Below are positions 691 through 28,336 of a stretch of DNA of 30,082 bases, in pieces. Below the pieces are notes generated by a model. It searched no databases. It saw only the letters and a list, made by a program, of their open reading frames with translations, and was not told where the DNA came from. The stretch lies in IMG/VR virus record IMGVR_UViG_3300028925_000675, positions 1 to 30,082 of that record; one strand, 5' to 3'. This DNA comes from a virus. The translations under genes were made by a program, and so were the position numbers. Numbering within the stretch: the stretch's first letter is position 1; each line of letters begins with the position of its first letter.

Positions 691-719
691 TATATAATAG
701 AACTACTTGTTCTTTATTT
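691..719 (-). promoter_or_regulatory. Putative late promoter motif, copy A (scaffold)
   Basis: Minus strand reads AAATAAA (713-719), 11 nt, then TCTATTATATA (691-701), ending 23 nt before the scaffold ATG. The same 29-nt architecture occurs at 1440-1468, 13944-13972 and 28308-28336. Promoter role is inference. Confidence 0.6.
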
Positions 720-1425
720 GATTTTCGTTTATAATCTCATTTAATGCTTCTAATATTTCTTGGTCTGTTGGAGTTGTTTCTGACATCTTTTCCATCTTGT
801 CTGTAAAATAACCTTCGATACTTAATCCCTTTAAAGTTCCTGATTTTATCTCTTTCCAAATTTCGTCATTGGTTATACGCATAGAAACCATCCAAGTTCC
901 TTTTGGCAAACTGAATCCGTACAGAGTAGACTTATCCATTTTAGGGTCATCTATAATCCAAGACTCTACTGTCAAAACCCCTGAAACTCTTTCGTTATGT
1001 TCCTGAGTAGCTTTGTGGTGATTGTTATTTTTTAAGTAGAGTTCACTTGCCTTTCTGACGGTGTCTTTTGAAAAGAAAACATAATAATCAGATGAAGTTT
1101 GTGGGTCGTGTCTAAAGATTTGCTTATCGGGGATAAGGGCTGGCGATATTAGCATTCGTTTGTCCTCATCTACTTTAGCAAATGTCAAGTTGTTTTTCTC
1201 TTTACCAAAGAACACAAAGTCCTGCTCGATTGCTGGAGCCGAAACAAGGCTTATCGCATCTATTGCAAGTTCCTCATTTCCATCTATTACCAATTCTACA
1301 ATAGAGGTGGTTTTCATTTCTTCATAAGTGCTATTAGCATCTTCACAATCTTGTAAAGTAGCGTATTCACATTTTCCCGTTTCACCCCATTTATATAATC
1401 CTTCTTCACATTTAGTACACGGCAT
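703..1425 (-). CDS. XkdF-like prohead maturation serine protease
   Basis: 240 aa. Likely the capsid maturation protease that cleaves scaffold and capsid during head assembly. After a Cys-containing N-terminal extension (about 1-33, CTKCEEGLYKWGETGKC) comes a domain like the XkdF/Peptidase_S78_2 family: VELVIDGNEELAIDAISLVSAPAIE opening motif (in pieces about 43-66), a KATQEHN segment with the probable catalytic His near residue 142, and GLSIEGYF near 203 with the probable catalytic Ser. It precedes scaffold and capsid, the normal order for this gene. The start is the only ATG that includes the Cys motif, and a late-promoter motif lies 14 nt upstream. The role of the N-terminal Cys segment is unknown. 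Confidence 0.85.
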   Translation of the reverse strand: MPCTKCEEGLYKWGETGKCEYATLQDCEDANSTYEEMKTTSIVELVIDGNEELAIDAISLVSAPAIEQDFVFFGKEKNNLTFAKVDEDKRMLISPALIPDKQIFRHDPQTSSDYYVFFSKDTVRKASELYLKNNNHHKATQEHNERVSGVLTVESWIIDDPKMDKSTLYGFSLPKGTWMVSMRITNDEIWKEIKSGTLKGLSIEGYFTDKMEKMSETTPTDQEILEALNEIINENQIKNK

Positions 1426-1439
1426 AGTTTAGTCTTTGG

Positions 1440-1468
1440 TATATAATAGATATTAAGTTTGTTTATTT
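1440..1468 (-). promoter_or_regulatory. Putative late promoter motif, copy B (protease)
   Basis: Minus strand: AAATAAA, 11 nt, TCTATTATATA (1440-1450), 14 nt before the protease ATG, in the 47-bp gap after the tape-measure gene. Bases flanking the upstream box (AAAATCAAATAAA) match copy A exactly. Confidence 0.6.
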
Positions 1469-1472
1469 GATT

Positions 1473-3302
1473 TTATATTGTAGCTCTACGTCTTATTACT
1501 GCAAGTGCATTCTGACTATCTGTAATACTATCAGAAACTACGTAAGCCTGTAAAGGTTCTGGAGCTTCCCCTCCAGTTAATTCAAAAGAGCCTGACATCA
1601 TTTCAGGTGCAGGAGTACCTGAATCACCACCACCACTAGCTGATGGATTAGTTCCACCTGTAGCACCTCCCTTGCCTAAAGCCGAAAGACCTTGACCTGC
1701 TGCTGCTATTGAAGCTGCAATAGATATTCCCATTGCTATATTATTTGCCGCAATTATAGGGATTGCTGACCCAGGAACTAATACATTTGCTGGTGATGCT
1801 AAAGCTCCTGCGTTTGCAGCTTGAGTTGATATAATTGTTCTTGCAATACCTAAAGCGTTTTCTGCAATAATAATTCCAGCCATTACTTCTTTGTTTTCAC
1901 CTGCTAAAGATTTAACTAAAGATAAGCCTGCACTTATATTATCAAGGTTAGCATCTCTAATTTTTACCTTTGCATCAGCGACTGCCTGTTCTACCTTAAT
2001 TTTATCATCTGCAAGTTTCTTGTCTGCCGCTAACTCTTCATTTCTTTGTCTTTGCTGCTCCTCATTCCATTTGTCATTTGCATCTATCATCCTATCAAAT
2101 GCTGCTTCATCATCTGCTATTTTTTGTTCTTTTATAGCTTTTTCTTCATTTATAGCAGTAGTGATTTGAGTCTGTAATAGCCTTTGACTTCTTAATTTTT
2201 TAGTGTCTAAGTTAATTAAGTCAGCTTGAAGTTGTGCAAGTTTATCTTTAGCTTCCTTAGTATTTAATCCTTGTTTATTTTCTTCAATCTGAGCATTTAT
2301 AAGAAGTTTTTTAGACTCAATCTCTTTTGTAGTAATTTCTTCTTCTATCTTTTGGGCTTTTCTTAGTAAAGCTATTCTTTCTGTTGCATTGAATTTTTCC
2401 CTATCTTCAGCTTTTAGTCTTATATCATTTATTTTCCTATTTGCTTTAGCTCTTTCAACTTTCAGCTCTCTGTCTATATGATGTGCTTTTTGACGCATCT
2501 TAGTTACTTTATCTAAAACACCTATTTCTTTTTCAGTTTCTTCAACAAAATCAGTTGCAGCTAAAGTTGCTTTTACAAACATATCTCTAGTTGCGCCTGT
2601 AGGGTCACGAAGGAATTTCAATAAACCGTTCCCAAATGTTTTCATTGCAGGAAGGGGGTCGGTGAAAGTTTCTATAATTATTTCCCCTAAGTCAGAAAAG
2701 GCATCCAAGACCTGAGATGTGACAGCACCAATAGCTGCCATTATTCTTTGGAACTTTTCTTGCCCTTCTTCTGAACGCTTAAATGATTGGATTAAAGCCA
2801 TAACTCCAATAACTAAAGCACCTATACCTGTGCTTATCATACCTGCTCTAATGGTACTAAACATAGCCTTAGCAGTTGGTATAATCTGACTGAATCCTTT
2901 TTTAACTCCATTCAAAGAAACTCCCATAATTTGAAAATTTGCAATGCTTTCTTTTGATTCTTTGTTGTTTCCTTTTTTTGCTTCTGTGGATTGCTTTACT
3001 TCCTTAGTAGCTTCTTTTTGTTGGTTTGTTAAAGATTTTAAGGTATTTTTTTCTAGGTTTAATAAGTCATTTGTATTTCTTATTTTATCATTTAACTTAT
3101 CCATTCCTGCAACCCAGCCACCTTTAGGGATGGCGTCTTGTTGTGCTTTCAGTTTTATCAATAGTCTTTCTTGTCTAACTATTTCTTCATTCTGTATTTT
3201 TATTTCTTCATTTACATCATCTAAAACCTTACCCCAATCTTTAGTTTCTTGTGTAACTGACTTTATATTTGATTTTACCTCTAAGTTTAATGTTTCTGCC
3301 AT
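1473..3302 (-). CDS. Tail tape measure protein
   Basis: 609 aa. Sets tail length and is probably ejected to help DNA entry. Seen: long charged coiled-coil stretches (about 20-110 and 260-460, rich in K, E, Q, A), a hydrophobic Gly-rich segment near 150-175 (TGIGALVIGVMALIQ), and an Ala/Gly/Ile-rich hydrophobic C-terminal region (about 470-545) followed by a Gly/Ser-rich linker. This mix is characteristic of tape measures and points to a siphovirus-like long tail; at about 1.5 angstroms per residue the tail would be near 90 nm (rule-of-thumb inference). It is the last tail gene, one base from the fibre gene at 3304. A short tail of the same length would not need it, so a podovirus is unlikely. 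Confidence 0.85.
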   Translation of the reverse strand: MAETLNLEVKSNIKSVTQETKDWGKVLDDVNEEIKIQNEEIVRQERLLIKLKAQQDAIPKGGWVAGMDKLNDKIRNTNDLLNLEKNTLKSLTNQQKEATKEVKQSTEAKKGNNKESKESIANFQIMGVSLNGVKKGFSQIIPTAKAMFSTIRAGMISTGIGALVIGVMALIQSFKRSEEGQEKFQRIMAAIGAVTSQVLDAFSDLGEIIIETFTDPLPAMKTFGNGLLKFLRDPTGATRDMFVKATLAATDFVEETEKEIGVLDKVTKMRQKAHHIDRELKVERAKANRKINDIRLKAEDREKFNATERIALLRKAQKIEEEITTKEIESKKLLINAQIEENKQGLNTKEAKDKLAQLQADLINLDTKKLRSQRLLQTQITTAINEEKAIKEQKIADDEAAFDRMIDANDKWNEEQQRQRNEELAADKKLADDKIKVEQAVADAKVKIRDANLDNISAGLSLVKSLAGENKEVMAGIIIAENALGIARTIISTQAANAGALASPANVLVPGSAIPIIAANNIAMGISIAASIAAAGQGLSALGKGGATGGTNPSASGGGDSGTPAPEMMSGSFELTGGEAPEPLQAYVVSDSITDSQNALAVIRRRATI

Positions 3303-3303
3303 T

Positions 3304-4176
3304 TTAAAATCTTATTTCTGTTGCTATTAATTCTTGTAAAGTAACTGTGGCACTCCATATATTAGTTACATTATTTCTGTCTTGCACTTCTATTGATATT
3401 GAGTCTACTGTTTCTGTTGTACTGTCTACCATAGTAGCAGAAGCATTTACTCCTATCTTACCAATGTTTCTTGTATATCCTACTATAAATGCCATTCCAC
3501 TTATTTCGCCTACTCTTACAACTCCTTTTATATTTCTGTAAGAGTAGTTTCCTAAAGTAGATGCTGTTCCTCCAACCTCTAGTCTTGTTATGTATATTTC
3601 AAAGCCGACTATTGAGTTTTCATTTACATTTATATAATTAGTGCCGCCTGTTCCATTTACTGTAAGTTTTGTGGATGTATTATCTGTAGTTGTACCTGCT
3701 AAATTAACTGTTGATACTTTTCTCTTACAGTTCGTTGAAGTGTCAGCAGTATTAATAACTTCAGCACCTCCACCTATTACAAGCGAACCATCTCTATTAG
3801 CCGTTCCACCTTCACCTAAGACTGTCGCATTGCTTACTCCGTTTGCTATTTCATTCGCACTTCCATTTATAAAGCAGTTATTGTTTAAGCCTTTAGTAGT
3901 ATTACTACTTCCATTAACTTGAATAGTATTAGAACCTCTTTCAGTTGTATTTCCTGCTCCATTATTCTTATTGTTTATATTACTTAAAGTCCTTTCTATG
4001 TTTGTATTAAACCTGAAGGCACTACACGTTCCTGAAACTCTGTCATAAGTATACCCATACGCTTCACATTGTAGTTGGTTTGGTGTTATGTCGTTGTTAG
4101 TTCCGTCTGTGAAAAAAACATCTCCTGTAACTGTAATGCTAAAGGGCTTGATTGTATATCCTGTTAAAAAATCCAT
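3304..4176 (-). CDS. YadA-head-like tail fibre or adhesin
   Basis: 290 aa. Probably a trimeric receptor-contacting tail component. Residues about 62-140 show repeats rich in N, G, S and A (pattern like NTIQVNGSSN, CFINGSANEIANGVSNATVLG, SLVIGGGAEVIN) that resemble the left-handed beta-roll repeats of YadA-type adhesin heads. N-terminal to this is a Cys motif, QCEAYGYTYDRVSGTC (about 36-51), similar in spacing to the motif at the start of the prohead protease. The C-terminal 130 residues look like a beta-rich domain. It sits between the tail hub gene (1-nt overlap) and the tape measure (1-nt gap), which fits a tail-tip role. Exact fibre type is uncertain. Confidence 0.6.
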   Translation of the reverse strand: MDFLTGYTIKPFSITVTGDVFFTDGTNNDITPNQLQCEAYGYTYDRVSGTCSAFRFNTNIERTLSNINNKNNGAGNTTERGSNTIQVNGSSNTTKGLNNNCFINGSANEIANGVSNATVLGEGGTANRDGSLVIGGGAEVINTADTSTNCKRKVSTVNLAGTTTDNTSTKLTVNGTGGTNYINVNENSIVGFEIYITRLEVGGTASTLGNYSYRNIKGVVRVGEISGMAFIVGYTRNIGKIGVNASATMVDSTTETVDSISIEVQDRNNVTNIWSATVTLQELIATEIRF

Positions 4177-6899
4177 TATGGTATTAAAATAAATTCAACT
4201 GTTGCTAAACTGTTTGGTTTGTACTGTATTTTATTTACTCGAAATGACCTGTTCTTAATCATCACCAGGTCGTAGAATTTAAAGGTAGATATATCTGAAG
4301 GGCTTAGATTTACCTTTAAAGTCATAATTCTTGTATCTGGATTGTAAAGCTCATTAAAATAAGGTGCCCAATAACTGTTGTATAAATTATTTACAGGCAG
4401 TACTGCTGGAGCAATAGAAACAGGAAGCTGAGAACTCTCAAATACAAAATCCCTAGATGCCGCTACTGTAATTATATCTGATAAATGACTGAACTGCAAA
4501 AATTCAGTTTCATTTGAGCTAGTACCTCCATTTTGAGATGGTATGTAATAAGAAGCACCTGTATCTTTTTTTCCATTGTTATATAATATTCTAGGAGAAT
4601 TATCAAATCCCTCACAAGTCCCGTCCGCATTCCTAGCATATACGCTAGGTATTATAAAATCAAGAAATTGGTCGCTGATGGGCTTTGAAACAGTAGCAGC
4701 AAATGGTTCTGCTGTTATTTCTTTTGTACCTTCTAAGATTGTAAATCCTGAAGCACTAAGCACTTTACTTCCGTACAGGTGTCCGCTTTGAGCTTTCTTA
4801 AATACATTAAAACAAAAATCGTCGTCATCTTCAACAAATTTAAAAATAGTTTCTAAGTTAAGGTCAGTCAAAGGCTTTAATTCCATTTCTGAAGCATCTA
4901 CCTTGTCTGTCCAGTCGTGCTGAATCCCCCTAGCTTTTAGTGTTACGTCTCCTGGTCCTCCATTTGTATCATTAATAAAGATGTCAGCATAAGGTTCTAT
5001 TAAGATATTATCAGCATTTGATTCATCTACCATAGTAATTAGATTAAACATAGTCATAATTCCTTTCAAGAAATCCCATTGCCCTAGCTCTCCTCTTAGT
5101 GTTTGTAAAAGGCTATTAGATGTTACCTGAGCAGCACCAATAGCTCCCAATATAACAAATAACTGATTTTCACCCAACAATCCTTCTCCTGCTGTATTTG
5201 TTTTCCACTCATACTGTATATAATCCCCTGCTTGAAGTATCATAGTTGTTAATGGTGTTGTCGTTGCAGGTGGGTATTGATATAATACTTGACTTTCATA
5301 ATTGTAAGTGTTTAAGAGTGACCCTCCCGAATTATAGTGCGCCCATCTCGTTTCCATAGTTTGAGAAGAATAAAAAACCGGTCCAAAGTGAGGGATTTCC
5401 ATAAGGTAAGTCTGATAATTATAAGAAGCAACAAATCTGCTATTTACAACATCATAACCCATAGTACTGTCAAAAGAATTAATAGAAAGAGGTAATGGAG
5501 CAAAAGAAGTTGTTGATAAAAAATTAGGCTCACTATGTTGTCCGTATGAACCTCCCGCAGCAGGAGATGCAAGTTCATTGCCACCCCAGTTAAAATCCAT
5601 ATAAAGTTTTTCGAAGTCTGCACTATCAAAGAAGTTAGAAGTCCAATTAAAACCTGACGCTGCAAATATTTTATTTATCAAATACTTTAATTGAATACAA
5701 GGTCTGAATGCAGACTCTAAAGAAGTTAGCTCGGGATTGTCTGCTGTTGCACTATTTCCTGAGCCATTAGCTTGACCTACCAAGTATTGGTGATTCCAAT
5801 CAATAAACGGGTATCTCAATGTTGTGTAAGGGTCTCTAAAGCCTGAAGTATTTGGATTAAGATAATTAATATTTGTGTCCGGACTATCATTCCAACTATA
5901 TGTAATTTGTAATTTATTATAGTCGTGGTCTAATTCTGTGAAGTCTAACTCCGAAAAAGTCCTGTCTTTTAAAATATCAGCTAAAGCAATAACTTCAGAA
6001 AAAAGATTGACATTGTAGCTTATTTCCCCTTCTTTCTCTTTAGCATCTATAAGTCTTAAATATCCTTCAAATAAAATGAATCCATCTTGTTTTAAGACGC
6101 ATTTAGTTCTTACATAAGGGTTAAATATAAGTCCGTCATCAGCTCTTGTAACCTCAAACATATTGTTAAAGATTTGATTGTTCCTTTTGGTAGCTGGTAG
6201 GTTAAAGTCCTTAGAATAAGATTGTACTTTCTCAGCTACATTTTTAAAGTCATCAATACTTAAAGTTAATGGTATATCTTCTTCTGCATATAAATCACAA
6301 ATAACTTGTCCTTCCCCTGACAGTACTTCATTCGTAGAAGTATTTGCTTTCCTAATACTAATAGAATTAATAAGTGAAGCTCCTGTAACTAAACCTGGTC
6401 TGTGCTTATTTATAACAATAAATTGAGAAGTAGAAACAGCAGTAAATTGAAAGGTTGTATCGAATATAATTAAGTTGGGTAAATTATGTGAGCTTTGAAA
6501 AACTGTACCAGAATACATATATGCCTTAACATCTTCTCCAAATTGTGATGAAAAATTAACGCTTACTTCATATACTGCTCCCACTGTTAAGCCAGTTAGC
6601 TTCTGTATTATACCTGTATCTTCAGGGCCGACATTCTGACCTTCAAGTTTTAACTTATTACCTACCATTGTAACTCCTAAAGCAGCTCCTGTGTAATACC
6701 TGTACCAAGAATTCGAGATTATAGATGCCGATATAGCGTTTATTGCATTCTGAACTGCATTAACTTGCGCCACTACTGTAGAAGGAGAAGCATTAACTAA
6801 ATTAAAATTCTGTCCGTCTACCATAACTTCAGTAGCAAGAACACTGCCAAAGGTAAAGCCAACATCAGTCTGCGTGTATAATATAAGTTGTGTACTCAT
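4176..6899 (-). CDS. Large tail hub / baseplate-like protein
   Basis: 907 aa, the largest protein in the genome. Probably the tail-tip hub. The N-terminal ~200 residues are beta-rich and include an insertion that resembles a carbohydrate-binding module. Residues about 205-330 contain a hub-like segment (VQSYSKDFNLPATKRNN and later FILFEGYLRLID), as seen in tail proteins of many Bacteroidetes siphophages. The C-terminal ~60 residues (DLVMIKNRSFRVNKIQY) resemble the end of hub/Tal-type proteins. It overlaps the next and previous tail genes by 1 nt. No catalytic lysin motif was recognised. The call is from architecture and position, not a named family. Confidence 0.65.
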   Translation of the reverse strand: MSTQLILYTQTDVGFTFGSVLATEVMVDGQNFNLVNASPSTVVAQVNAVQNAINAISASIISNSWYRYYTGAALGVTMVGNKLKLEGQNVGPEDTGIIQKLTGLTVGAVYEVSVNFSSQFGEDVKAYMYSGTVFQSSHNLPNLIIFDTTFQFTAVSTSQFIVINKHRPGLVTGASLINSISIRKANTSTNEVLSGEGQVICDLYAEEDIPLTLSIDDFKNVAEKVQSYSKDFNLPATKRNNQIFNNMFEVTRADDGLIFNPYVRTKCVLKQDGFILFEGYLRLIDAKEKEGEISYNVNLFSEVIALADILKDRTFSELDFTELDHDYNKLQITYSWNDSPDTNINYLNPNTSGFRDPYTTLRYPFIDWNHQYLVGQANGSGNSATADNPELTSLESAFRPCIQLKYLINKIFAASGFNWTSNFFDSADFEKLYMDFNWGGNELASPAAGGSYGQHSEPNFLSTTSFAPLPLSINSFDSTMGYDVVNSRFVASYNYQTYLMEIPHFGPVFYSSQTMETRWAHYNSGGSLLNTYNYESQVLYQYPPATTTPLTTMILQAGDYIQYEWKTNTAGEGLLGENQLFVILGAIGAAQVTSNSLLQTLRGELGQWDFLKGIMTMFNLITMVDESNADNILIEPYADIFINDTNGGPGDVTLKARGIQHDWTDKVDASEMELKPLTDLNLETIFKFVEDDDDFCFNVFKKAQSGHLYGSKVLSASGFTILEGTKEITAEPFAATVSKPISDQFLDFIIPSVYARNADGTCEGFDNSPRILYNNGKKDTGASYYIPSQNGGTSSNETEFLQFSHLSDIITVAASRDFVFESSQLPVSIAPAVLPVNNLYNSYWAPYFNELYNPDTRIMTLKVNLSPSDISTFKFYDLVMIKNRSFRVNKIQYKPNSLATVEFILIP

Positions 6900-9398: not shown

Positions 9399-9925
9399 TA
9401 TTTTCCTATTGGATTATTAGCAACAGGAATAACGCAAGTCTCAAAGTCATTCTGTACTACTATTCCTATTGAGAATACCCATCCTGTCAAGAGGTTGTCG
9501 AATCTTTCTTGGAAAGGCTCTAAATTATATTCGCCCTCTGTAAAATAAACAGGAGCATCAATGTCTAAAGTTCCTTCTGCTTGCCACTTACTATGTCGCA
9601 TCATACCTATAATATCAACACAAACCTGCAAGCAACTTGAAGCTACTTCTTGTTCATTACTTAAATCATTTGCTGACAGTAGGTTAGCTTCTGTCCAATT
9701 TTCTCTCTCAGTTACTGCATCCATAACAAAGAGCTGGAAGTTATATGTCAAGGAAGATAACCCTGTTTCTACATTGACAGGGTTTATATGAAACAAAGGG
9801 AACAAAGTTTCATTCATATCTATTTTCCAAATATCCCCAGTAGTAGTAGTTGAAATCTGTTCGTGCTGGTCGCCCAAACTCTTTAAAGTGTCTATGGCAT
9901 TATTGTACGTCTTATTTGCTATCAT
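9398..9925 (-). CDS. Tail terminator / neck protein-like
   Basis: 175 aa. Residues about 28-75 contain DIWKIDMNETLFPLFHI and LTYNFQLFVMDAVTE, a pattern I associate with tail-completion/terminator proteins of Bacteroidetes siphophages, where a beta-hairpin and helix pack on the tail tube end. It overlaps the end of the frameshifted chaperone by 14 nt and precedes the other neck genes. No catalytic residues are expected. Family name not certain. Confidence 0.55.
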   Translation of the reverse strand: MIANKTYNNAIDTLKSLGDQHEQISTTTTGDIWKIDMNETLFPLFHINPVNVETGLSSLTYNFQLFVMDAVTERENWTEANLLSANDLSNEQEVASSCLQVCVDIIGMMRHSKWQAEGTLDIDAPVYFTEGEYNLEPFQERFDNLLTGWVFSIGIVVQNDFETCVIPVANNPIGK

Positions 9926-10690
9926 CTCTGTTTACTTGTTTACTTTCGTTTAAATCTGTTTCATAACTTAGCCAAGTTAAGCACTCTAATAAATTGAGCT
10001 TTGTTACTGCATCTAAGTTTACTATATTTTGATTGCAGAGACGGTGGAGGACTCCGAACCATCCCCATCGTTCTGCAAAATTTCCGTCTGTAATTCCTCC
10101 ACTATCTCCTGAGTCCGTTCCATCAAATACGATGGCAAAATCTCCGATAACTCCTTCGCGAAATGCCAAAAAAAAACCAACGCACTTTGTACTTGCTCTG
10201 CTGACATCTTCTTCATTTCTTCTGCCCTTATAGTTATTTCACCATCATAAGCTGCTATGGTATATGCTGAACCGTTCTTTTCTTTAATCGGCCTAAATAA
10301 CACCGCCATTAATTCAGGCATATTCTTTTCTAATCCTTCTTTTATAAATGTTTCAATATCTGCATACTCTCCAAGAGTTATTTGTGAAAGGTCGGGATGC
10401 GTAGCGTATTCAACTCCATCTATTTCAAAAACCTTTTTTAATACTGTATCTTGCTTACTTTGTAACTCAGCTACCTTGCCCATTATTATAGCCACATCTC
10501 TTAATGCTAATTCCTTTACTAACTTCTTAGGCATATCTGACAATGCTGCTATTGTTTCTTCTGCTTGTTCTGTTTTGCTTCCTGTTTCAGCATCAATTAC
10601 TTTAATCCATTTTTCCAGAGTTACATCTGACCAAGAATCAATCAAGTTATAAGTTTCGTTCTTTCCGTCTTTTTTAATTTTTACTTTCAT
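9912..10690 (-). CDS. Tail assembly chaperone GT (-1 frameshift fusion, about 259 aa)
   Basis: Translation starts with chaperone G at 10690. At a run of nine T on the minus strand (10168-10176), read GTT TTT TTT TGG, a -1 slip on T TTT TTT gives TTG GCA and continues to a stop at 9912. The fusion keeps G residues 1-174 and adds 85 residues that contain NFAERWGWFGVLHRLC and NLLECLTWLSYETD, typical of the T part of GT chaperones in this phage group. The T part has no ATG of its own (only TTG at 10167-10169), which supports frameshifting. GT binds the tape measure during tail tube assembly in lambda-like phages. Confidence 0.85.
10022..10690 (-). CDS. Tail assembly chaperone G
   Basis: 222 aa, the zero-frame product. 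G-type chaperones hold the tape measure before tube polymerisation. Seen: an N-terminal EKWIKVIDAETG-like segment, MPKKLVKELALRDVAIIM (about 53-70), ITLGEYADIETFIKEGLEKN (about 103-122) and VFFWHFAKEL across the slip site. The last 48 residues are specific to G and end in a Gly/Ser-rich tail. It follows TerL and opens the tail operon; a TCTATTATATA element lies 12 nt upstream. Location far upstream of the tape measure, with other tail genes in between, is unusual compared with lambda. Confidence 0.8.
   Translation of the reverse strand: MKVKIKKDGKNETYNLIDSWSDVTLEKWIKVIDAETGSKTEQAEETIAALSDMPKKLVKELALRDVAIIMGKVAELQSKQDTVLKKVFEIDGVEYATHPDLSQITLGEYADIETFIKEGLEKNMPELMAVLFRPIKEKNGSAYTIAAYDGEITIRAEEMKKMSAEQVQSALVFFWHFAKELSEILPSYLMERTQEIVEELQTEILQNDGDGSESSTVSAIKI
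10168..10176 (-). promoter_or_regulatory. -1 programmed frameshift slippery site
   Basis: Nine consecutive T on the coding strand in phase G GTT TTT TTT TGG. The heptamer T TTT TTT is 10169-10175. A short inverted pair, TGGCA immediately after the run and TGCCA about 30 nt later, could be a stimulatory stem. Confidence 0.85.
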
Positions 10691-10702
10691 AGTAGTTTAT
10701 AA

Positions 10703-10727
10703 TATATAATAGAAATAGTTGTTATTT
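10703..10727 (-). promoter_or_regulatory. Putative late promoter motif, copy C (chaperone G)
   Basis: Minus strand TCTATTATATA at 10703-10713, 12 nt before the G start codon. AAATAA lies upstream but 4 nt closer than in the other copies, so this copy deviates in spacing. It is in the 120-bp gap after TerL, a natural place for a promoter of the tail operon. Confidence 0.5.
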
Positions 10728-10780
10728 AGTTTATTCGTGTATATTTGCCGAGTTCTTCATATTCTTTCTTGTTCTGAATT

Positions 10781-13207: not shown

Positions 13208-13941
13208 AATATGCCATTCTTTTCATAAGCTGCTGCAATATCCTTAGTAAGTTTTACATATCCTTTTTCTATAGCCTTATCAAAGTCTATTATCACTAAA
13301 GCTGAATCTTCCATAAGCTCTTGAACTTCTTTGCTTGAATGTGCATAGAAGTCTGCTATTTTACTGTAATCATAAACTGTATGTCTTAATGCACAATGAG
13401 ATAAGAACATTAGTTCTTCTTCATTTAAGTCAGCTTGTTTTATTTTATGTATAAGTTCATCTGCTTTTTGAGTGCTGAATAAATCATCTATAACAGGCTT
13501 GTCATTTTTAGGCTCATAAGTTGGAGCTACTATCTTTCTTGTATATGTATCATCTTCTTCAACTATTGCATCATCTTGATTCTCCCATACATCTAATCCC
13601 CAATCAGCAAGTTGAACACTATCCCATTCATTTGCTAGTATATCCCATTCCCATTCTCCAAAGCCTACATTGTCTTTTACTATAAACTCTTTCTTTTGTT
13701 CTTCAGTAAGTCCTTCAGCTATATCTATCCATACTTCTGATAGTCCTGCATCTTTACTTGCCTTCAATCTCATATTACCACCAAGCACCATCATATCTTC
13801 ATCAACTACAATTGGTCTTAGCTTTAACATCTCAGGAAACTCCTTGATACTTGTAACTAGCTTCTTAAACTTATCGTTCTTTATGATTCTAGGATTGCTT
13901 GGGTTTCCCTTTACTTTACTTATCTTAACTTGTTGCTTCAT
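13204..13941 (-). CDS. ParB/Srx-like domain protein
   Basis: 245 aa. N-terminal ParB/Srx fold: NPR (16-18), a helical KLVTSIKEFP segment, LRPIVVDEDMMVLGG, and GGNMRLKA (54-61) corresponding to the ParB box. EWEWDILANEWD and LADWGLDVW (about 97-119) are usual in phage ParB-like proteins near terminases and DNA methylases. The C-terminal half (about 130-245) is helical with HTVYDYSKIADFYAH and SALVIIDFDKAIEKG, also seen in Bacteroidetes mobile elements. Role may be NTP-dependent DNA binding or base processing; not a partition protein here because no ParA is present. It leads the packaging operon and has a late-promoter motif 2 nt before the ATG. Confidence 0.85.
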   Translation of the reverse strand: MKQQVKISKVKGNPSNPRIIKNDKFKKLVTSIKEFPEMLKLRPIVVDEDMMVLGGNMRLKASKDAGLSEVWIDIAEGLTEEQKKEFIVKDNVGFGEWEWDILANEWDSVQLADWGLDVWENQDDAIVEEDDTYTRKIVAPTYEPKNDKPVIDDLFSTQKADELIHKIKQADLNEEELMFLSHCALRHTVYDYSKIADFYAHSSKEVQELMEDSALVIIDFDKAIEKGYVKLTKDIAAAYEKNGIL

Positions 13942-13943
13942 AG

Positions 13944-13972
13944 TATATAATAGAATTTTATTGTTTTTATTT
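13944..13972 (-). promoter_or_regulatory. Putative late promoter motif, copy D (ParB-TAGT-TerS-TerL)
   Basis: Minus strand AAATAAA, 11 nt, TCTATTATATA (13944-13954), ending 2 nt before the ParB ATG. Such a short distance to the start means transcripts from it would be nearly leaderless or start within the gene; the latter would make this copy a different kind of element. Confidence 0.5.
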
Positions 13973-14228
13973 AGAAGTCCTCATTTATTCCCCTATCACC
14001 TATTAGTTTTTCTTTAGCTCCTGCCCATAGACTATCACCTCTTTTTTTTTTACTTAAAGATTCTTCAGTTCTTATTTGACTTGGCATTCCTTCAAGTGGT
14101 TTTGATTGCATATACTTTCCACATTCACAGCAGAGAGCTTCTTTGGTCTGCCAATCATCATCTATGTAAACTATTGTAGCTACTGATAGTTCTTTAGTGT
14201 TTCCGCACTTGCATTTGTATAGAGTCAT
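13971..14228 (-). CDS. Small zinc-ribbon protein
   Basis: 85 aa. Two Cys pairs, CKCG (6-9) and CCECG (33-37), are spaced as a zinc ribbon; a tail follows with MPSQIRTEESLSKKKR. Similar short proteins occur in early regions of flavobacterial phages. It overlaps the DUF3310 gene by 4 nt (ATGA) and is the last gene before the late ParB operon. Function unknown; DNA or protein binding is possible. Confidence 0.6.
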   Translation of the reverse strand: MTLYKCKCGNTKELSVATIVYIDDDWQTKEALCCECGKYMQSKPLEGMPSQIRTEESLSKKKRGDSLWAGAKEKLIGDRGINEDF

Positions 14229-14684: not shown

Positions 14685-14796
14685 TATTTCTTTTGTTTAA
14701 TTTAGTTCTATTATCTTTTATATATTTAATAGGTTGTGCAAATCCAAACATCATTCTAAATGTTCCCATTGTTTCAGGGCAGTATAGTTTAGTCAT
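14629..14796 (-). CDS. Possible 55-aa basic protein
   Basis: Starts inside the end of the gene above it (ATGACTAA, 8-nt overlap at 14789-14796) and ends in TGA at 14629-14631. The product opens MTKLYCPETMGTFRMMFG and ends in a Lys/Arg-rich stretch. It fills an otherwise empty 104-bp gap in a tightly packed operon, and the start overlap matches those of neighbouring genes. Against it: 56-nt overlap with the next ORF. Confidence 0.45.
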   Translation of the reverse strand: MTKLYCPETMGTFRMMFGFAQPIKYIKDNRTKLNKRNNARKKKIQDHQMGSKATN

Positions 14797-15190
14797 TGTA
14801 TTTATTATATAGTTTCTTTATTCCATCAAAGCAAGTTGAAATGCAAGAACCGCAATTAGTTCCTGTTCCATAATTAGTCATATAAATAGCGTTGTATAAA
14901 GTTATCATTTTCTTTTTAGTTTGTTGGTCTTTTGCTCTTCCTTTTTTTAGGTCTTTCCATAAGTCTAGGATTTCATCTATCATTTCTTGTGGCAAGTCAT
15001 CAGGCGCTTCCATCACCATACTTTTAGACCAATACTTTTGCGGACATTCCATTGGAGCAATTCGTGCCTTGATTTTCATAAAACATTTACAAACCGTGCA
15101 GTTACCTAAAAGACTTGAATAGTAAACGCATTCCTTACAAATAGCCATTCTATCTTCATACACATTATTAGGAACAAAAAACTTATTCAT
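14789..15190 (-). CDS. Cys-rich zinc-binding hypothetical protein
   Basis: 133 aa. Two Cys clusters: CKECVYYSSLLGNCTVCKC with CPQKYW (about 18-54), resembling a zinc-binding module, and NCGSCISTC near 112-120. The middle (about 63-100) is helical and charged. Family not named with certainty; similar proteins occur in Bacteroidetes phages. It overlaps the sigma-like gene by 8 nt and is likely co-translated. Might be a DNA-binding or transcription accessory protein. Confidence 0.6.
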   Translation of the reverse strand: MNKFFVPNNVYEDRMAICKECVYYSSLLGNCTVCKCFMKIKARIAPMECPQKYWSKSMVMEAPDDLPQEMIDEILDLWKDLKKGRAKDQQTKKKMITLYNAIYMTNYGTGTNCGSCISTCFDGIKKLYNKYND

Positions 15191-15749
15191 CTGTCAATTC
15201 TTTTTTTAGTATCTCTCTTACTTTATCTATTGTAGTGAAAAGACTGTTGCGACTTATCCCTGTTTTCTTTGCTAAAGAGTCTAGTGTTTCTCCTGAATAG
15301 TAAAGCTGAAAAACCTTTCTATCATACCAGTATAAATCATTTAAAACTAAGTCGATTTTATCTAGCTTTTCAAACTCCAAATTCTTAACAGCAGGTTCTT
15401 CCGCTATATTATACAAATGTTTTGTTGGTATCACTTCTCCTGTTTCAATTACATCATAAGTTACATTACTTGTAAAGCTATCAATGTGAGTATAGTATTT
15501 CTTGTACTGATAATAGAACGGGCTTCTTGTACTTGTTAAAGCCCTTCTTAAAACTACTGCTCCGTATCTTGTTATCCCATCTAAGCCGTCTTTATCATAT
15601 ATTTTCTTAACTAATTCTGGTCTTTCTAAAAAATAAATAAATAATTCTTGAACTGCATTATTAATATCTTCTTTGTTTTTAGTAAGTCCATAACACATAG
15701 TCCTGAATTTATCACTTAACTTTGATATTTCAAGATATATCTTATTCAT
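15183..15749 (-). CDS. Sigma-factor-like transcription regulator
   Basis: 188 aa. Region-2-like helices at about 12-42 (KFRTMCYGLTKNKEDINNAV followed by QELFIYFLE) and a region-4-like helix-turn-helix at about 132-185 (DRKVFQLYYSGETLDSLAKK, then TGISRNSLFTTIDKVREIL). This arrangement fits small sigma-70-like proteins. It is the only transcription factor candidate in the genome, and five copies of a non-host-like promoter motif precede late genes, so it is the obvious candidate for late-gene switching (inference). Overlaps the neighbouring genes by 8 nt on each side. Confidence 0.7.
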   Translation of the reverse strand: MNKIYLEISKLSDKFRTMCYGLTKNKEDINNAVQELFIYFLERPELVKKIYDKDGLDGITRYGAVVLRRALTSTRSPFYYQYKKYYTHIDSFTSNVTYDVIETGEVIPTKHLYNIAEEPAVKNLEFEKLDKIDLVLNDLYWYDRKVFQLYYSGETLDSLAKKTGISRNSLFTTIDKVREILKKELTDE

Positions 15750-21172: not shown

Positions 21173-21379
21173 TTATCTTGACTTGATGTGTTTGATTAAT
21201 TGTTTTTTAATATACTTTAAATGTTCTGTATCAATCCATTCTAAAAAGTTATAAGAGTCAAAACAGATTTGAAAGTCCTTCCCGTATTCATCTGTTCCTC
21301 TTAAATAAACTTCGTTTTCGTGTGCTTGGAATGTATTAATATCATTCATTCTTTTGTGTATCAGTTCTTCGTTCTCCAT
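21173..21379 (-). CDS. Small hypothetical protein (68 aa)
   Basis: Acidic to neutral, with MENEELIHKRMNDINTFQAH at the start, KDFQICFDSYNFLEWI in the middle and a basic helical end (LKYIKKQLIKHIKSR). Its start forms TAATG with the preceding gene's stop. Such small conserved proteins lie upstream of recombinases in flavophages. Function not recognised. Confidence 0.6.
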   Translation of the reverse strand: MENEELIHKRMNDINTFQAHENEVYLRGTDEYGKDFQICFDSYNFLEWIDTEHLKYIKKQLIKHIKSR

Positions 21380-22154: not shown

Positions 22155-22188
22155 TTTCTTGATTGTTTTTAATTAAACTTCTAGATAA

Positions 22189-22274: not shown

Positions 22275-22297
22275 GTTTTTTTTAATTACTTATAGAA

Positions 22298-22329
22298 CAA
22301 AGATACAAAAAATAAATGATATAAACAGA
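22298..22329 (-). promoter_or_regulatory. Bacteroidetes-type promoter for the early region
   Basis: Minus strand TATCTTTG (22298-22305) is a perfect TAnnTTTG -7 box. At 20-nt spacing lies TCTG (22326-22329), one base from the TTTG -33 box. Transcription would begin near 22291, just before the structured RNA. Confidence 0.6.
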
Positions 22330-22446
22330 ATGATAAACAAAGTTATTAACAATATAGGTGTTTACATCTAAGAAAGACTTTAGGGCTTGTCTAGTGTATA
22401 GGTATCAAAAAGAAAAGAAAGTGCCTTAGAGGGCTTAGAGAGGGTG

Positions 22447-23261: not shown

Positions 23262-23421
23262 TTCCTTGCCCTATAATAAGTGCAATTGCAGCTTGGAAAA
23301 GTTTTGTAGCAGTTTCTTCATCTACACCTAAATAGGTTACAATGACAGGTACTACAATAGAAGCTACTGCGTACCAGAATTTTTTGCTTTTAAGCATCGA
23401 ACTGATTAACCATTTTTTCAT
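23239..23421 (-). CDS. Putative holin (60 aa)
   Basis: A basic start (MKKWLISSMLKSKKFW), one membrane helix (about 17-33, AVASIVVPVIVTYLGV), an acidic helix (DEETATKLFQAAIALIIGQG) and a charged end (IADSGKK). This length and pattern fit small phage holins that permeabilise the inner membrane. Immediately downstream of the DUF5675 gene, which supports a lysis role. Start ATG overlaps a Lys-rich leader. Class of holin uncertain. Confidence 0.65.
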   Translation of the reverse strand: MKKWLISSMLKSKKFWYAVASIVVPVIVTYLGVDEETATKLFQAAIALIIGQGIADSGKK

Positions 23422-23423
23422 CT

Positions 23424-23972: not shown

Positions 23973-24115
23973 TTGTCCGCAGTATAGACTATTGATATCA
24001 CTAAAAGTATAATCTTTAAAACTACCTCAATGTTTGAGAAAGTCGCTATGCTTAATATTGTTGAGTTTAGTATCACTACATCTCCCACTTCCTTTGCTAG
24101 TGCTTTTAGTGCCAT
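23933..24115 (-). CDS. Small membrane protein (60 aa), holin-like
   Basis: Two hydrophobic segments (about 11-30, GDVVILNSTILSIATFSNIE and 31-46, VVLKIILLVISIVYTA) and a basic tail KWYFQKRKRDGKK. Probably a second lysis-related membrane protein, perhaps an antiholin. In-frame stop lies just upstream of the ATG, so this start is fixed. Overlaps the DUF5675 open frame by 40 nt unless that gene starts at M33. Confidence 0.55.
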   Translation of the reverse strand: MALKALAKEVGDVVILNSTILSIATFSNIEVVLKIILLVISIVYTADKWYFQKRKRDGKK

Positions 24116-24176
24116 CTTTTAAGTATGCTTTTAATTTAGTTTTGTTTTTCTCTTTTACTTTGTAAGTCTTTTTCAT
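24027..24176 (-). CDS. Possible 49-aa basic protein
   Basis: ATG overlaps the connector stop as TAATG. Product is very basic (MKKTYKVKEKNKTKLKAYLK onward). It overlaps the membrane-protein gene by 89 nt in another frame, which is unusual for this genome. It is either a genuine small gene or a by-product of a Lys-rich frame. Confidence 0.3.
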   Translation of the reverse strand: MKKTYKVKEKNKTKLKAYLKDGTKSTSKGSGRCSDTKLNNIKHSDFLKH

Positions 24177-24745
24177 TAATCTCCAGCGCTTAAGAAATTC
24201 CTTAATGTAAGTTTAGTTCCTTGTCTTGGTCTTTCAAGATTCATATTGGAGTAATAATTTTCTATTGACGGTCTGACATCAGCTCCCGTGTTGGTAGTAT
24301 ATTCAGGGAAACTAGCTGTATTGTTTCTTATATAGTCAATCATTCGTTCCATATAATACTCCGCAGTATTTAAAACTTCATTTCTAAGGTGTTGAGCTTC
24401 TTCAGTTGATAAAGCATTTCCAGTTTCTGAAGTCTTAGAATAAATGTTCCCATTCTCAATCTTGAAACGAAGGAATGGGAGTGCCATATATAGCGCAAAG
24501 CTCGGCAGCATCTCAGCTATGTAGTCATTAAGCAAAGTTGCATAAGCTTCATTTCCTGCATTATTGACTGTTCCTGCTACAATTAAATCTTTCAATTTCT
24601 GATTTAAGTCCGTACCAAGTTTGGTTTCTACATAGAGCTTCTGGCTCTGTTTTATATACGGGAGTAAAAGAGATGTATCGACATTTAAGCCTACTGTCGT
24701 GGAATCTTTTAAGCGTTCCTCACTTATAAAAAGTACATATGCCAT
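24176..24745 (-). CDS. Head-tail connector (DUF6712-like)
   Basis: 189 aa, mostly helical, as for gp6/DUF6712-type adaptor proteins that sit under the portal. Seen: EERLKDSTTVGLNVDTSLLL (about 9-28), PYIKQSQKLYVETKLGTDLN, LLNDYIAEMLPSFALYMALP and AEYYMERMIDYI. Position just downstream of the portal is the usual one. The C-terminal 20 residues are basic and may contact the tail. Ends by TAATG with the next ORF. Confidence 0.75.
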   Translation of the reverse strand: MAYVLFISEERLKDSTTVGLNVDTSLLLPYIKQSQKLYVETKLGTDLNQKLKDLIVAGTVNNAGNEAYATLLNDYIAEMLPSFALYMALPFLRFKIENGNIYSKTSETGNALSTEEAQHLRNEVLNTAEYYMERMIDYIRNNTASFPEYTTNTGADVRPSIENYYSNMNLERPRQGTKLTLRNFLSAGD

Positions 24746-24750
24746 AGTTT

Positions 24751-26598
24751 CTAATTGTAATATCCGTTATTAGCCATTCTTTGTGGTGCTATTGCTACTA
24801 GCTTATCATTTCGTTCTGCTGTAAATCCTTCTGACCTAGCTTTAGTGTAGCTGATTATTTGACTATCACTAATAGGTTGTTTTGCATTCCTTAATGAAGT
24901 CTTGAACAGCTTACGCAAGAAGAAATGTCTGCATTGAGGACCGCCTTTAAAAAGAAACAAATTATATGCTTTTCCATTATGTCCAAAGCCTGGATTTACG
25001 CTATTACTATTAGCATTAACTAAATTTTCTTTAGTGTATAATTTATTTGCTGCAACCATTTGCTTACAAAAACTCCTGCTTGTTCCTGATTTGTTTACTA
25101 AAAAATTATCAGTAGCGTAAACATATCTTACTTTATAGTAGTCATTAAAAGATTTATTTACTCCATCTTGACTACTCCTTTTATTTGGAGTAGATTTTAT
25201 TGTAGTTGCTAATTCTATTTTTTCACTAGCTAATTCGTTCATAATTTTTTCAAAATCAAAATCATTATGTTCTCCGTCTACTACTTCTTCATCTATCAAC
25301 TCCCAATCTTCTGACATATCCTCACCACACTCGTCTATGAACGCATCTAAGGCAGTATATTCAGTCATCTTAGTAAGTTCCTCATCAACTACTACATCTT
25401 CCTTTAGAGGTGCTAATCCGAGTTCTTCTCGTATTTCATCTTGCGTCATTACTGCCGCTAAGTCTTGATTTGTAAATCTGGTTGTTATTGGTTTAAGCTG
25501 CTCAAATCTCACGGGCATATCCATATTGTTTACTGTAAAGATTTTTTTAAGGACTTTCAAGATATGTTCTTGGAATGGTTTTACCACCGTATTGCTATAA
25601 AAATTCGCTGCACTATTCAGCTCGTCTGCATTATTTCCTAAGCCACTATCACTCTTGATTCCCATTAATATCGGACTCGTAATTCGGTGAGCCGTTAAAA
25701 TATTTTGAACCAATAATTCTTGCAAAGCCAAATACTGTTTATCGAGGTCTGAAGGAGTGATTGCTGTTATCTCAGGAGTCCTAGTCTTATCGTCGGAGAA
25801 CGTTAAAATAAATTTCCCAGCATTGTCAGCTCCTGTGAATTTATCTGTAAGGCTTTGTTCTATTTGTCTACGCTCCTCAGCAGTCGGCACGCCATTGGCG
25901 AAAGAGATTAGGAAGCTAGAACTGAAGCCTGAGTTGATGTTATTTAGGTGAAATTCAGCCACTCGCTGGTCGACTAAAGCCCAATTATTTCCAGCTACGT
26001 AATCTGGTGTATGGTATGCATTCATACTAGGACTGTACAGCCCTGTATATAAAATTTGATTAGGCGAAGTCCTGTCATTAGTATTAAAGGCAGGAACTCT
26101 ATAAGGTTTGTTCTGTCTAATATCAGACCAATCTGCTGAAACATAATACCCTTCAACTTTTCCTAGTTTATTTGGTTTTTCTGCTCTAATCTTATCCACT
26201 CCTATATGGTAGACTTCAGCGATTTGCGTCCTATCTTGCGACCAAACAACGTTAAGAGCGAACGCTCCTTGCAGCTTAAAGTCAAAAGCTATCTTTTTAA
26301 TAACTTCTTGTAGTGTTTCATTACTATTAGCTGAGTTAAAGAACTTTTTTAATTTAACAACTGCTTCTAAATCTCTTTCTTCTTCATCTTCAATTACAAT
26401 ATCTTCCCCTGCAATCATCTCTGCCGTTGCGTTAATAATAGCCGCTTGTGTACTAGAATTATAATAGAGGTCAATTAAGAACTGTGGATAGAGGTTTGCC
26501 CAATCTTCTGTTCCATAATCAATCCAATGTTTCCCACGAACTTCTGTTACTACTGGAGCTGTCGTTGTGCTTAAATTTACTGAGAGTATATTTTCCAT
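24751..26598 (-). CDS. Portal protein with MuF-like C-terminal domain
   Basis: 615 aa. Residues about 1-390 match the portal family of Bacteroidetes siphophages: HWIDYGTEDWANLYPQFLID, STQAAIINATAEMIAGEDIV, AEFHLNNINSGFSSSFLISF, HRITSPILMGIKSDSGLGNN and KPFQEHILKVLKKIF. After an acidic linker, residues about 480-615 form a small domain with SRSFCKQMVAANK and KGGPQCRHFFLRK; the FC...CRHF pattern resembles the MuF/head morphogenesis fold. This fuses portal and minor head functions. Position is downstream of capsid and the small adhesin-like genes and just before the connector. Confidence 0.85.
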   Translation of the reverse strand: MENILSVNLSTTTAPVVTEVRGKHWIDYGTEDWANLYPQFLIDLYYNSSTQAAIINATAEMIAGEDIVIEDEEERDLEAVVKLKKFFNSANSNETLQEVIKKIAFDFKLQGAFALNVVWSQDRTQIAEVYHIGVDKIRAEKPNKLGKVEGYYVSADWSDIRQNKPYRVPAFNTNDRTSPNQILYTGLYSPSMNAYHTPDYVAGNNWALVDQRVAEFHLNNINSGFSSSFLISFANGVPTAEERRQIEQSLTDKFTGADNAGKFILTFSDDKTRTPEITAITPSDLDKQYLALQELLVQNILTAHRITSPILMGIKSDSGLGNNADELNSAANFYSNTVVKPFQEHILKVLKKIFTVNNMDMPVRFEQLKPITTRFTNQDLAAVMTQDEIREELGLAPLKEDVVVDEELTKMTEYTALDAFIDECGEDMSEDWELIDEEVVDGEHNDFDFEKIMNELASEKIELATTIKSTPNKRSSQDGVNKSFNDYYKVRYVYATDNFLVNKSGTSRSFCKQMVAANKLYTKENLVNANSNSVNPGFGHNGKAYNLFLFKGGPQCRHFFLRKLFKTSLRNAKQPISDSQIISYTKARSEGFTAERNDKLVAIAPQRMANNGYYN

Positions 26599-26599
26599 T

Positions 26600-27286
26600 T
26601 TATAAAGTTGCTAGTCTATCGTTTATATTAGCCGTTAATCCTGCACTTGAACTGCTATATATTTGTACTTCTTTTATTGTACCATCAAAAGCATCATTAT
26701 CACTAAACCTTATTCCAATAGCATCAATATCAGCTGTTCCTGCTAGTGTAGGTGTTGTGCCAGTTTGAGCCACTCCGTTTTGCCATAAAGTTAAGACATT
26801 AGAAACTCTAGTGATAACTAAGTAATCATCACCAAAAGTTCCAGCATCTAAATCTAATTGAATTGCTCCTGATAAGTCCATTTTTACTGTCATCCTGATA
26901 CCACTTGCGAATTTAAATAGCTCTTTAGTAGTAGTGTTGTCTCCTAGAAAAGTTCCTGCTCCTGCAATAGCAGGGTTTACCCTAATCCCTATTGTAAAAT
27001 CTCCTGACAATTCAATTTGCCCTGTCGTTTGTAAGTTGTTAAGGTCACCTCTTACAAAAGTTAAAACTCCTGTTCCTGCATCATAAGCAGGTTGCTCTGT
27101 TGCAGTATCTTGTAACATATCATAACTATTACTAGAACTATCACGCCAAACTGAAACATCAGAACCACTAAGAGTTATCCCTACTTTGTTTTGATACCAA
27201 GCGACAAGGCTTGTTTCATCAGCAGGTGTCCATTCCCCTTGTGGTCTTATTGAAGATAAACTTAAATCTAAACCTAATTTCAACAT
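26600..27286 (-). CDS. LamG/concanavalin-like domain protein
   Basis: 228 aa, almost all one beta-sandwich. LVAWYQNKVGITLSGSDVSV, WRDSSSNSYDMLQ, DFTIGIRVNP, then FKFASGIRMTVKMDLSG, YLVITRVSNVLTLWQNGV and FDGTIKEVQIYSSS match a LamG/Laminin_G_3-like lectin fold. It could bind sugars on the cell surface from the virion. It is encoded between capsid-linked genes and the portal, an unusual place for a receptor-binding protein, so a decoration of the head is possible. Confidence 0.75.
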   Translation of the reverse strand: MLKLGLDLSLSSIRPQGEWTPADETSLVAWYQNKVGITLSGSDVSVWRDSSSNSYDMLQDTATEQPAYDAGTGVLTFVRGDLNNLQTTGQIELSGDFTIGIRVNPAIAGAGTFLGDNTTTKELFKFASGIRMTVKMDLSGAIQLDLDAGTFGDDYLVITRVSNVLTLWQNGVAQTGTTPTLAGTADIDAIGIRFSDNDAFDGTIKEVQIYSSSSAGLTANINDRLATL

Positions 27287-27289
27287 ATC

Positions 27290-27565
27290 TTATGTAGTTG
27301 GACCTTCGTGATAACCTACTCCAATACCACTAGTCAAAGTAATTGCGGTGATATTCATAAACAGGGTAGTCCCCGCAGGTAATGTCGTTACCAAGGCACT
27401 TTCACCTGTTGCATCTGCTACTGTTATTGAAGCTACTACACTTTCAACAGGGAAGTAAACACAATACCAATCTTTACTTGTTTGTGCTACTGTTGTAAAG
27501 ACTACTGTATCTCCGTTTTTACCTAGTTGCTCAGTCAAGAGCTGTTGTACGTTTTCTATTGCCAT
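27290..27565 (-). CDS. Small virion-associated protein (91 aa)
   Basis: Beta-rich: VVFTTVAQTSKDWYCVYFPV, TVADATGESALVTTLPAGT and ITLTSGIGVGYHEGPTT. No known family recognised. Sits 3 nt from the LamG gene and 24 nt after the repeat-rich structural gene, so it is probably a virion accessory or fibre part. Confidence 0.5.
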   Translation of the reverse strand: MAIENVQQLLTEQLGKNGDTVVFTTVAQTSKDWYCVYFPVESVVASITVADATGESALVTTLPAGTTLFMNITAITLTSGIGVGYHEGPTT

Positions 27566-27589
27566 TTTATTTATTTTAAAATTTTATTT

Positions 27590-28303
27590 TTATTGTCCGT
27601 AATATATATAATTAGTTTGTTCTATGCTTGCTGTTATGTTAGCCGCAACAGAAAATCCTCCACCTGTTAAAGTTACTACTGGGTTAGTCTCATAACCACT
27701 TCCAGCATAAGTGATTGTTACAGTATTAACTCCACCCCCTCCATCTATTGTGCAAGTTGCTGTCGCTTGTTGTCCTCCATTTGTTTCTGGAGCTGCTATT
27801 GTAATAGTCGGAGCAGACACATAGTTTAACCCACCCTCAACAATGGTTAAAGTTTGTACTCTTTTTGCATTTTGAATATATTGTACTTCTTCATCTCCTG
27901 CTTTTTCTGCTAAGTATAATTTTCCAATAGCTACAAGACCTTCTACTACTCCATTTTCATCACTTACAGTCAAGACATCTGTTTCCGTAGATGGTGCAGT
28001 TCTAGAGCTTAGAATAACACCTCCAACCCAACTTACTTCATATACTTCGTATTTGTAATATCCAGCAGGTTTTAAATTTATCCTTCCTGTATATCTATTA
28101 GGAGAACTATTATAGATAAAAGCCATACTAGTATATCTTTCATAAATATTCTCTATTAAAGGGTAAGCATAAAACACAGAGCCATCTAAGTCATTTATGA
28201 ATTTAACTAAATGTCTTGTCTTGTCTCCCACCTGATTGCCTATTCTATTTGCCTTAGTTTCTATAAAGGCATCAAAATTAGTTTCTCTTATTGCTTGTAT
28301 CAT
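27590..28303 (-). CDS. Structural protein with GxGY beta-repeats
   Basis: 237 aa. N-terminal half (about 1-120) is a phage-type structural domain (VKFINDLDGSVFYAYP and SPNRYTGRINLKPAGYYKYE). The C-terminal half has two repeats: GGLNYVSAPTITIAAPE and GSGYETNPVVTLTGGG, a pattern common in virion surface proteins. It opens the operon that runs through LamG, portal and connector, and has a late-promoter motif 4 nt before the ATG. Probably a head-decorating or fibre protein. Confidence 0.6.
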   Translation of the reverse strand: MIQAIRETNFDAFIETKANRIGNQVGDKTRHLVKFINDLDGSVFYAYPLIENIYERYTSMAFIYNSSPNRYTGRINLKPAGYYKYEVYEVSWVGGVILSSRTAPSTETDVLTVSDENGVVEGLVAIGKLYLAEKAGDEEVQYIQNAKRVQTLTIVEGGLNYVSAPTITIAAPETNGGQQATATCTIDGGGGVNTVTITYAGSGYETNPVVTLTGGGFSVAANITASIEQTNYIYYGQ

Positions 28304-28307
28304 ATAA

Positions 28308-28336
28308 TATATAATAGAAAAAGCTCTTATTTATTT
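28308..28336 (-). promoter_or_regulatory. Putative late promoter motif, copy E (structural operon)
   Basis: Minus strand AAATAAA, 11 nt, TCTATTATATA (28308-28318), 4 nt before the ATG of the 237-aa gene. An intrinsic terminator lies just upstream (28355-28381), so this is a terminator-promoter pair. Confidence 0.65.

Follow-up and report, generated by a model that had tools for sequence, protein, structure and literature searches.

Sigma factors that are encoded by phages and read late promoters of their own are already known, as exemplified by gp36 of phiEco32 and gp47 of phage 7-11 (PMC8948821). The late promoters of 7-11 are bipartite (GTAAtg-16-aCTA; PMC8948821), and transcription in these two phages starts 6-9 nt from the -10 element. 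T4 offers another divergent phage sigma factor, gp55, whose late promoters (TATAAATA) are AT-rich and -10-like. These promoters lack a -35 element and depend on the sliding clamp. In the literature that we searched, no Bacteroidota phage was found with a phage sigma factor and private late promoters, nor was a description found of the promoters reported here, the collection searched being incomplete.

The system that we propose for the window, as we call the whole stretch of 30,082 nucleotides of viral DNA analysed here, would share with phiEco32 and 7-11 a divergent phage sigma factor, the use of the host core polymerase, a few private late promoters at operon heads and early genes left to the host primary sigma factor; its late promoters are bipartite as well. 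It differs from these systems in its promoter sequences and in the phylum of its host, with no sequence homology detected, and in the placement of the predicted +1, which would leave many messages leaderless. As in T4, the -10-like element is AT-rich; unlike in T4, a strong upstream half is present. A 99-bp terminal direct repeat makes it probable that the window, about 30 kb long, is a complete and circular record. Nearly all its genes lie on the minus strand.

The core of the element, TCTATTATATA, occurs in five exact copies on the minus strand (691-701, 1440-1450, 10703-10713, 13944-13954 and 28308-28318) and in zero copies on the plus strand; second-order Markov sequences of the window's composition lead one to expect 0.027 per strand. 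AAATAAA begins 18 nt upstream of four of these copies (at 719, 1468, 13972 and 28336). The earlier note had reported the five copies and this offset correctly; it had treated the 10703 site as an exception, which it is not, as AACTAAA stands there at the identical 18-nt offset, at 10731. The two-part element did not appear once in 300 simulations with the same second-order Markov model and composition. No exact copy of TCTATTATATA was found ahead of any early gene of the window, in agreement with what had been noted before.

The sites, all on the minus strand, head five sets of genes. Late promoter 1 (13941-13974; AAATAAA at 13972-13966, TCTATTATATA at 13954-13944) precedes the packaging operon, which encodes ParB, a glycosyltransferase, TerS and TerL, and its predicted +1, 13941, is the A of the ParB ATG, for a leader of 0 nt. 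Late promoter 2 (10700-10733; AACTAAA at 10731-10725, TCTATTATATA at 10713-10703) precedes a tail-chaperone-like gene, with a predicted +1 at 10700, the ATG at 10690 and a leader of 10 nt. Late promoter 3 (1437-1470; AAATAAA at 1468-1462, TCTATTATATA at 1450-1440) serves an XkdF-like protease gene, with a predicted +1 at 1437, the ATG at 1425 and a leader of 12 nt. Late promoter 4 (688-721; AAATAAA at 719-713, TCTATTATATA at 701-691) lies before a scaffold-like gene (predicted +1 at 688, ATG at 667, leader of 21 nt), and late promoter 5 (28305-28338; AAATAAA at 28336-28330, TCTATTATATA at 28318-28308) before the structural operon (predicted +1 at 28305, ATG at 28303, leader of 2 nt). These are the downstream genes that had been named previously, the labels "scaffold" and "chaperone G" being based solely on position and weak matches.

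Two features of these operons deserve mention in their own right. The chaperone-like ORF (10690-10022, minus strand) is overlapped by an ORF in another frame (10169-9912), an arrangement over 9912-10690 expected of a frameshifted tail-assembly chaperone pair. The ParB-TerS-TerL operon contains a TET-associated glycosyltransferase gene (TAGT, PF20691; 12353-13207, minus strand); TAGT is a DNA-hypermodification enzyme, and its position in the operon predicts late expression.

Megablast found no match to the window among phage records, and relatives were drawn from IMG/VR by a TerL search, which yielded 80 related contigs with a total of 789 kb. The most frequent 11-mer in these 789 kb was TCTATTATATA (155 forward and 3 reverse copies, 0.4 expected). 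An iterated 35-nt profile, applied to 20 near-complete related genomes at a threshold of about 3 matches in random sequence, gave 104 forward versus 2 reverse matches. Once overlaps had been removed, exactly five sites were present in 18 of the 20 genomes and four in 2 shorter or partial contigs, and they always headed the same five operons: packaging, tail-chaperone-like, protease, scaffold-like and structural. The packaging site precedes ParB, or TerS in relatives without ParB. A larger set of 315 related loci (2.86 Mb) contained 526 forward versus 3 reverse matches, 439 of them unique and 399 assignable to one of the five genes; related genomes are non-independent samples, so these counts do not represent independent events. 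In the 20 genomes the signal is bipartite with a fixed spacing, strong at -31 to -25 and at -14 to -3 with little in between; conservation that extends as far as -3 is unusual in a promoter read by a sigma factor and counts against the reading that we prefer below.

The motif is closely tied to this phage group. Of the 114 viral loci that the composite motif by itself picked out, 111 code for proteins related to those of the window. The same scan of a genome collection returned 113 loci, mostly isolated matches, and homologues of window proteins are encoded at only 5 of them, whose contigs have the look of phage DNA placed in the wrong bin; these five (L393, L414, L432, L445 and L474) sit in bins of Euryarchaeota, Pseudooceanicola and another genome. 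As in the late promoter systems of phage sigma factors, we find a private motif at late operon heads that is strand-specific and common to relatives.

The gaps without a late promoter carry a different signal. In the 20 genomes, TAnnTTTG was found 62 times in such gaps versus 18.4 expected, and once in late-promoter gaps versus 4.4 expected. The earlier note was right that the late motif does not resemble TAnnTTTG, which holds at all five sites of the window; TAnnTTTG is found in the early gaps instead. In relatives, a recurrent TTGTTAATAACTTTG box with a TATnTTTG box downstream precedes the early block, and its counterparts in the window, TAACTTTG at 22345 and TATCTTTG at 22305, are sigma-A boxes of the host type that stand in tandem at 22298-22345 (minus strand), in the long gap ahead of that block. 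These tandem TAnnTTTG boxes are probably the main early promoters. A generic sigma-70 scan of the window for TTGACA/TATAAT promoters did no better than chance, and such promoters were discarded as candidates. A terminator-like hairpin, GAGGTGGCTTATTGCCACCTT-TTTCTTTT (28362-28382, minus strand), lies just upstream of late promoter 5; a terminator consensus scan found 9 against 6.2 expected, which is weak alone.

Because the element composed of TCTATTATATA and AA(A/C)TAAA stands family-wide at late operon heads, and because the early gaps carry TAnnTTTG in its place, we conclude from sequence comparison that it is a phage late promoter. This had been proposed in the earlier note, and the motif search in related genomes, with five sites per genome before the same late operons, strongly supports it through strand bias, operon position and conservation. 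Moreover, the presence of TAnnTTTG boxes in early gaps and their scarcity in late gaps suggests an order in which the host polymerase acts first and a phage sigma factor second.

For the start of transcription, we number the first T of TCTATTATATA as position 0. Counted in this way, a pyrimidine at position 12 is followed by a purine at 13, and this conserved Y-R step does not result from the start codon, since it persists in 42 of the 50 sites of the 20 genomes with an ATG at least 8 nt away. The start codon itself meets a wall at position 13: at 144 of the 399 assigned sites the ATG falls exactly there (66/76 for ParB, 41/50 for protease), at about 100 more it lies up to 4 nt past it and in nearly all others 5-60 nt downstream, while at a single site of the 399 it is upstream. 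In the window, the next start codon of ParB does not come before residue 38. Given the Y-R step at 12/13 and the start-codon wall at 13, position 13 is the most likely +1; with this assignment the upstream half would most likely occupy -31 to -25, and the -10 box would be about CTATTATA at -12 to -5. In flavobacteria, TAnnTTTG of the primary sigma factor occupies that same -12 to -5 interval (PMC9723704), so the Bacteroidota primary promoters and those described here would have their -10 boxes at nearly the same place with a different sequence.

Since the predicted +1 coincides with the start codon at many sites, many late mRNAs should be leaderless, the Y-R step and the ATG wall together predicting a 5' end at or near their start codon. 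There is precedent for leaderless transcripts in phages, which the paper on AR9 describes as frequent (PMC5312081). Leaderless mRNAs make up only about 5.5% of the total in F. psychrophilum (PMC9723704), and leaders >10 nt are carried by 87% of the transcripts predicted for F. johnsoniae (PMC6847099). Separately, the TerS leaders of some relatives (e.g. L044, 9702-9770, and L056, 2826-2890) contain a palindrome or hairpin between the predicted +1 and the ATG, whose sequence varies among phages while the symmetry is kept (GATTGAATAATCAATC, TTGATTAATCAA, CAGTTAACTAATTTAAACTG); it is a candidate 5' hairpin or operator.

As for the reader of these promoters, a gene for an ECF-like sigma factor of 188 aa (15183-15749, minus strand) is found at the end of the early block, 1.2 kb upstream of late promoter 1. 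Its product matched phrog_1740 (sigma factor) weakly (E 1.4e-4) and had no Pfam match above cut-off; 15 of 35 of its homologues match Sigma70_r4 at E<=0.01. A tblastn search of 50,697 phage records gave no match at E<=0.01, and searching PDB sequences with a profile of the alignment turned up no sigma factor; these were retrieved by fold comparison alone. In the AlphaFold2 model, residues 1-75 and 124-188 form helical domains, and the linker between them (79-126) is disordered. ECF factors comprise a region 2 and a region 4 joined by a linker, in about 160-200 aa and with no region 3, and the modelled 188-aa protein has this two-domain layout. The leading Foldseek matches were sigma factors, mostly ECF, with E near 1e-3 and none <0.001. 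VIA-align ranked E. coli sigmaE first (Z 10.9) and, third, sigmaE region 4 on -35 DNA (2h27; Z 10.5, 68 residues, 1.8 A); ECF factors led the matches whether the entire model or just region 4 was compared. The best-conserved stretches, residues 61-88 (0.88) and the helix-turn-helix at 154-180 (0.93; linker, 0.47), are the putative DNA-reading parts.

With ECF sigma factors the system shares regions 2 and 4, fold matches to sigmaE, SigL, SigW and AlgU, and an AAC-like half at -35. It differs from ECF systems in being phage-borne, in having no anti-sigma partner that we could see and in its conservation to -3, and its -10 sequence, TCTATTATATA, is not of the usual CGTC type.

Among the testable loci (those with >=5.5 kb upstream), 68 of 68 have the sigma gene ahead of the packaging promoter, and 18 of the 20 genomes contain it. 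One of the others, G018, is a 24-kb fragment without it; G002 has five late sites but no recognisable sigma gene in its available sequence, an exception that counts against the proposed link; its ends look strain-chimeric. Both G002 and G007 (L165/L166, L175/L176) carry two early-region versions at their contig ends and are probably strain-chimeric circular assemblies. G007 has two different sigma genes (698 and 29196); its reading as a two-sigma phage was rejected and the pair put down to the chimeric ends. A small gene for a Cys-rich DUF6171 protein (14789-15190, minus strand) overlaps the end of the window's sigma gene by 8 bp, and its product is a possible sigma co-factor. Because the model matches ECF sigma factors in both domains and the gene precedes the packaging promoter in every testable locus, the product of 15183-15749 is the best candidate reader of the five promoters, a link drawn from co-occurrence, position and analogy. 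The two-domain ECF-type fold of the model lends support to the earlier suggestion that the sigma-like protein might fill this role.

A second case is provided by P12024S and P12024L, cultured Nonlabens phages whose TerL is 62% identical to that of the window. Their genomes lack TCTATTATATA. P12024S has another element, AAAACAAA-N14-CGTTAATATA, with the composite form AAACAAA-N13/14-CGTTAAT, found at six sites on one strand where 0.005 are expected. The ATG lies 12 nt after the C of CGTTAAT in 5 sites and 11 nt in 1. The start of transcription is thereby predicted on the A of the ATG at 3031, 5412, 23961, 25201 and 26802 of NC_018271, and within 1 nt of it at 21280. The host of P12024S in culture is Persicivirga sp. 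IMCC12024. When CGTTAATATA and CTATTATATA are aligned on the ATG, 7 of 10 positions agree, and they differ at -11, -10 and -8. The six sites head other genes than those of the window, though most late genes are homologous. The P12024-type composite recurs in six IMG/VR relatives or copies; a scan of viral contigs with AAAACAAA-N14-CGTTAAT is too AT-rich for specificity, and its matches with an ATG at 12 nt are mostly P12024-like. The sigma factor of P12024S, gp33, has 159 aa and scores 25.2 bits against Sigma70_r2, above the cut-off of 24; the fold of its region 2 matches ECF sigmas weakly (Z up to 6.7), and in profile comparison only the first ~50 residues align with the window sigma, at low probability. 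A motif that changes in sequence and in the genes it serves, keeps its geometry and goes with a different sigma factor is, by analogy, what would be expected of a promoter class with its own reader.

Taken as a whole, our preferred reading is one of private late promoters used by a phage ECF-like sigma factor with the host core polymerase, with +1 at position 13 and many leaderless mRNAs, and we hold it to be highly probable; on the same reading, and with the confidence that we place in it as a whole, the five elements would be the full late-promoter set of this phage.

The alternative that survives best keeps +1 at position 13 and gives the reading to a host alternative (ECF) sigma factor, or to a host sigma factor with a phage co-activator, the phage sigma-like protein having some other role. 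Flavobacterial ECF sigma factors do have CGT-type -10 boxes (motif SM6; PMC9723704), which the ECF-like CGTT of the P12024S CGTTAAT box resembles, and the small DUF6171 protein encoded beside the sigma gene would suit a co-activator; however, two phage groups have different motifs, each with its own sigma factor, and the motif is nearly absent outside this phage group, so we consider a host reader unlikely. A lower probability still, that of a quite improbable account, goes to the geometry of the earlier note, in which a -35 AAATAA, a 17-nt spacer and a -10 TATATA would place +1 about 7 nt on, at position 17, and give ordinary leaders. The hexamers are indeed 17 nt apart, but this +1 lies about 4 nt too far downstream: at 240 of the 399 sites (those with a leader below 4) it falls inside the coding sequence, past the ATG, and the window's ParB would lose its ATG, with no other start codon before the residue given above. 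The Y-R step, moreover, is at 12/13 and not at 16/17, and the P12024S ATG stands at the equivalent of position 13.

The proximity of the element to start codons, together with an AT-richness like that of Bacteroidota translation start regions, might instead point to an RNA-level element of late 5' leaders, a translation enhancer or an mRNA processing site, with no promoter involved. We find this very improbable, as the distance to the start codon varies from 0 to 41 nt, the upstream half keeps its spacing from the core and not from the ATG, and the sites occur at operon heads only, five per genome; a processing site also explains the wall at position 13 less well than a transcription start. 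Promoters of a T7-like, single-subunit phage RNA polymerase, which the long contiguous conservation near +1 would resemble, deserve hardly any credence, since no polymerase-like match was found among the large ORFs that this probably complete 30-kb genome contains (terminase, portal, tail/structural proteins, or unknown ORFs inside structural operons) and the element is in two parts, with a gap and a -35-like half.

Under our preferred reading, the host RNA polymerase with its primary sigma factor would read the early block from the TAnnTTTG promoters, and the last part of this block includes the gene of the two-domain ECF-like sigma factor, which would then join the host core polymerase. Its region 4 would contact the AA(A/C)TAAA motif observed at -31 to -25, and its region 2 the (T)TCTATTATA motif observed at about -13 to -5, at the spacing that is conserved between them. 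Judging by the Y-R step and the start-codon wall, transcription would begin at the conserved purine of position 13, with the first T of TCTATTATATA counted as 0. Most of the sites that head ParB, protease, chaperone and structural genes have their ATG on this +1 or 1-4 nt from it and would give leaderless or almost leaderless messages, and operons with more distant first genes would have leaders of 10-41 nt; the leaderless late mRNAs would presumably be translated as such.

A broader idea, which we offer tentatively and think rather doubtful, is that two Bacteroidota phage lineages have each tuned a private ECF-like sigma factor to start late transcription on the A of the ATG.

In summary, our analysis defines the promoters of an abundant group of marine phages precisely and across the whole family, adds another motif from P12024S, a relative in culture, and predicts late mRNAs that start on AUG in hosts with few leaderless mRNAs. 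If the assignment is right, it would furnish small orthogonal promoter/sigma pairs for Bacteroidota. Furthermore, if the tentative idea of tuning in two lineages were true, the late regulon of these phages would have been shaped to do without leaders and would bypass leader-dependent initiation in hosts that make no use of Shine-Dalgarno sequences, and leaderless late phage messages would gain a translational advantage.
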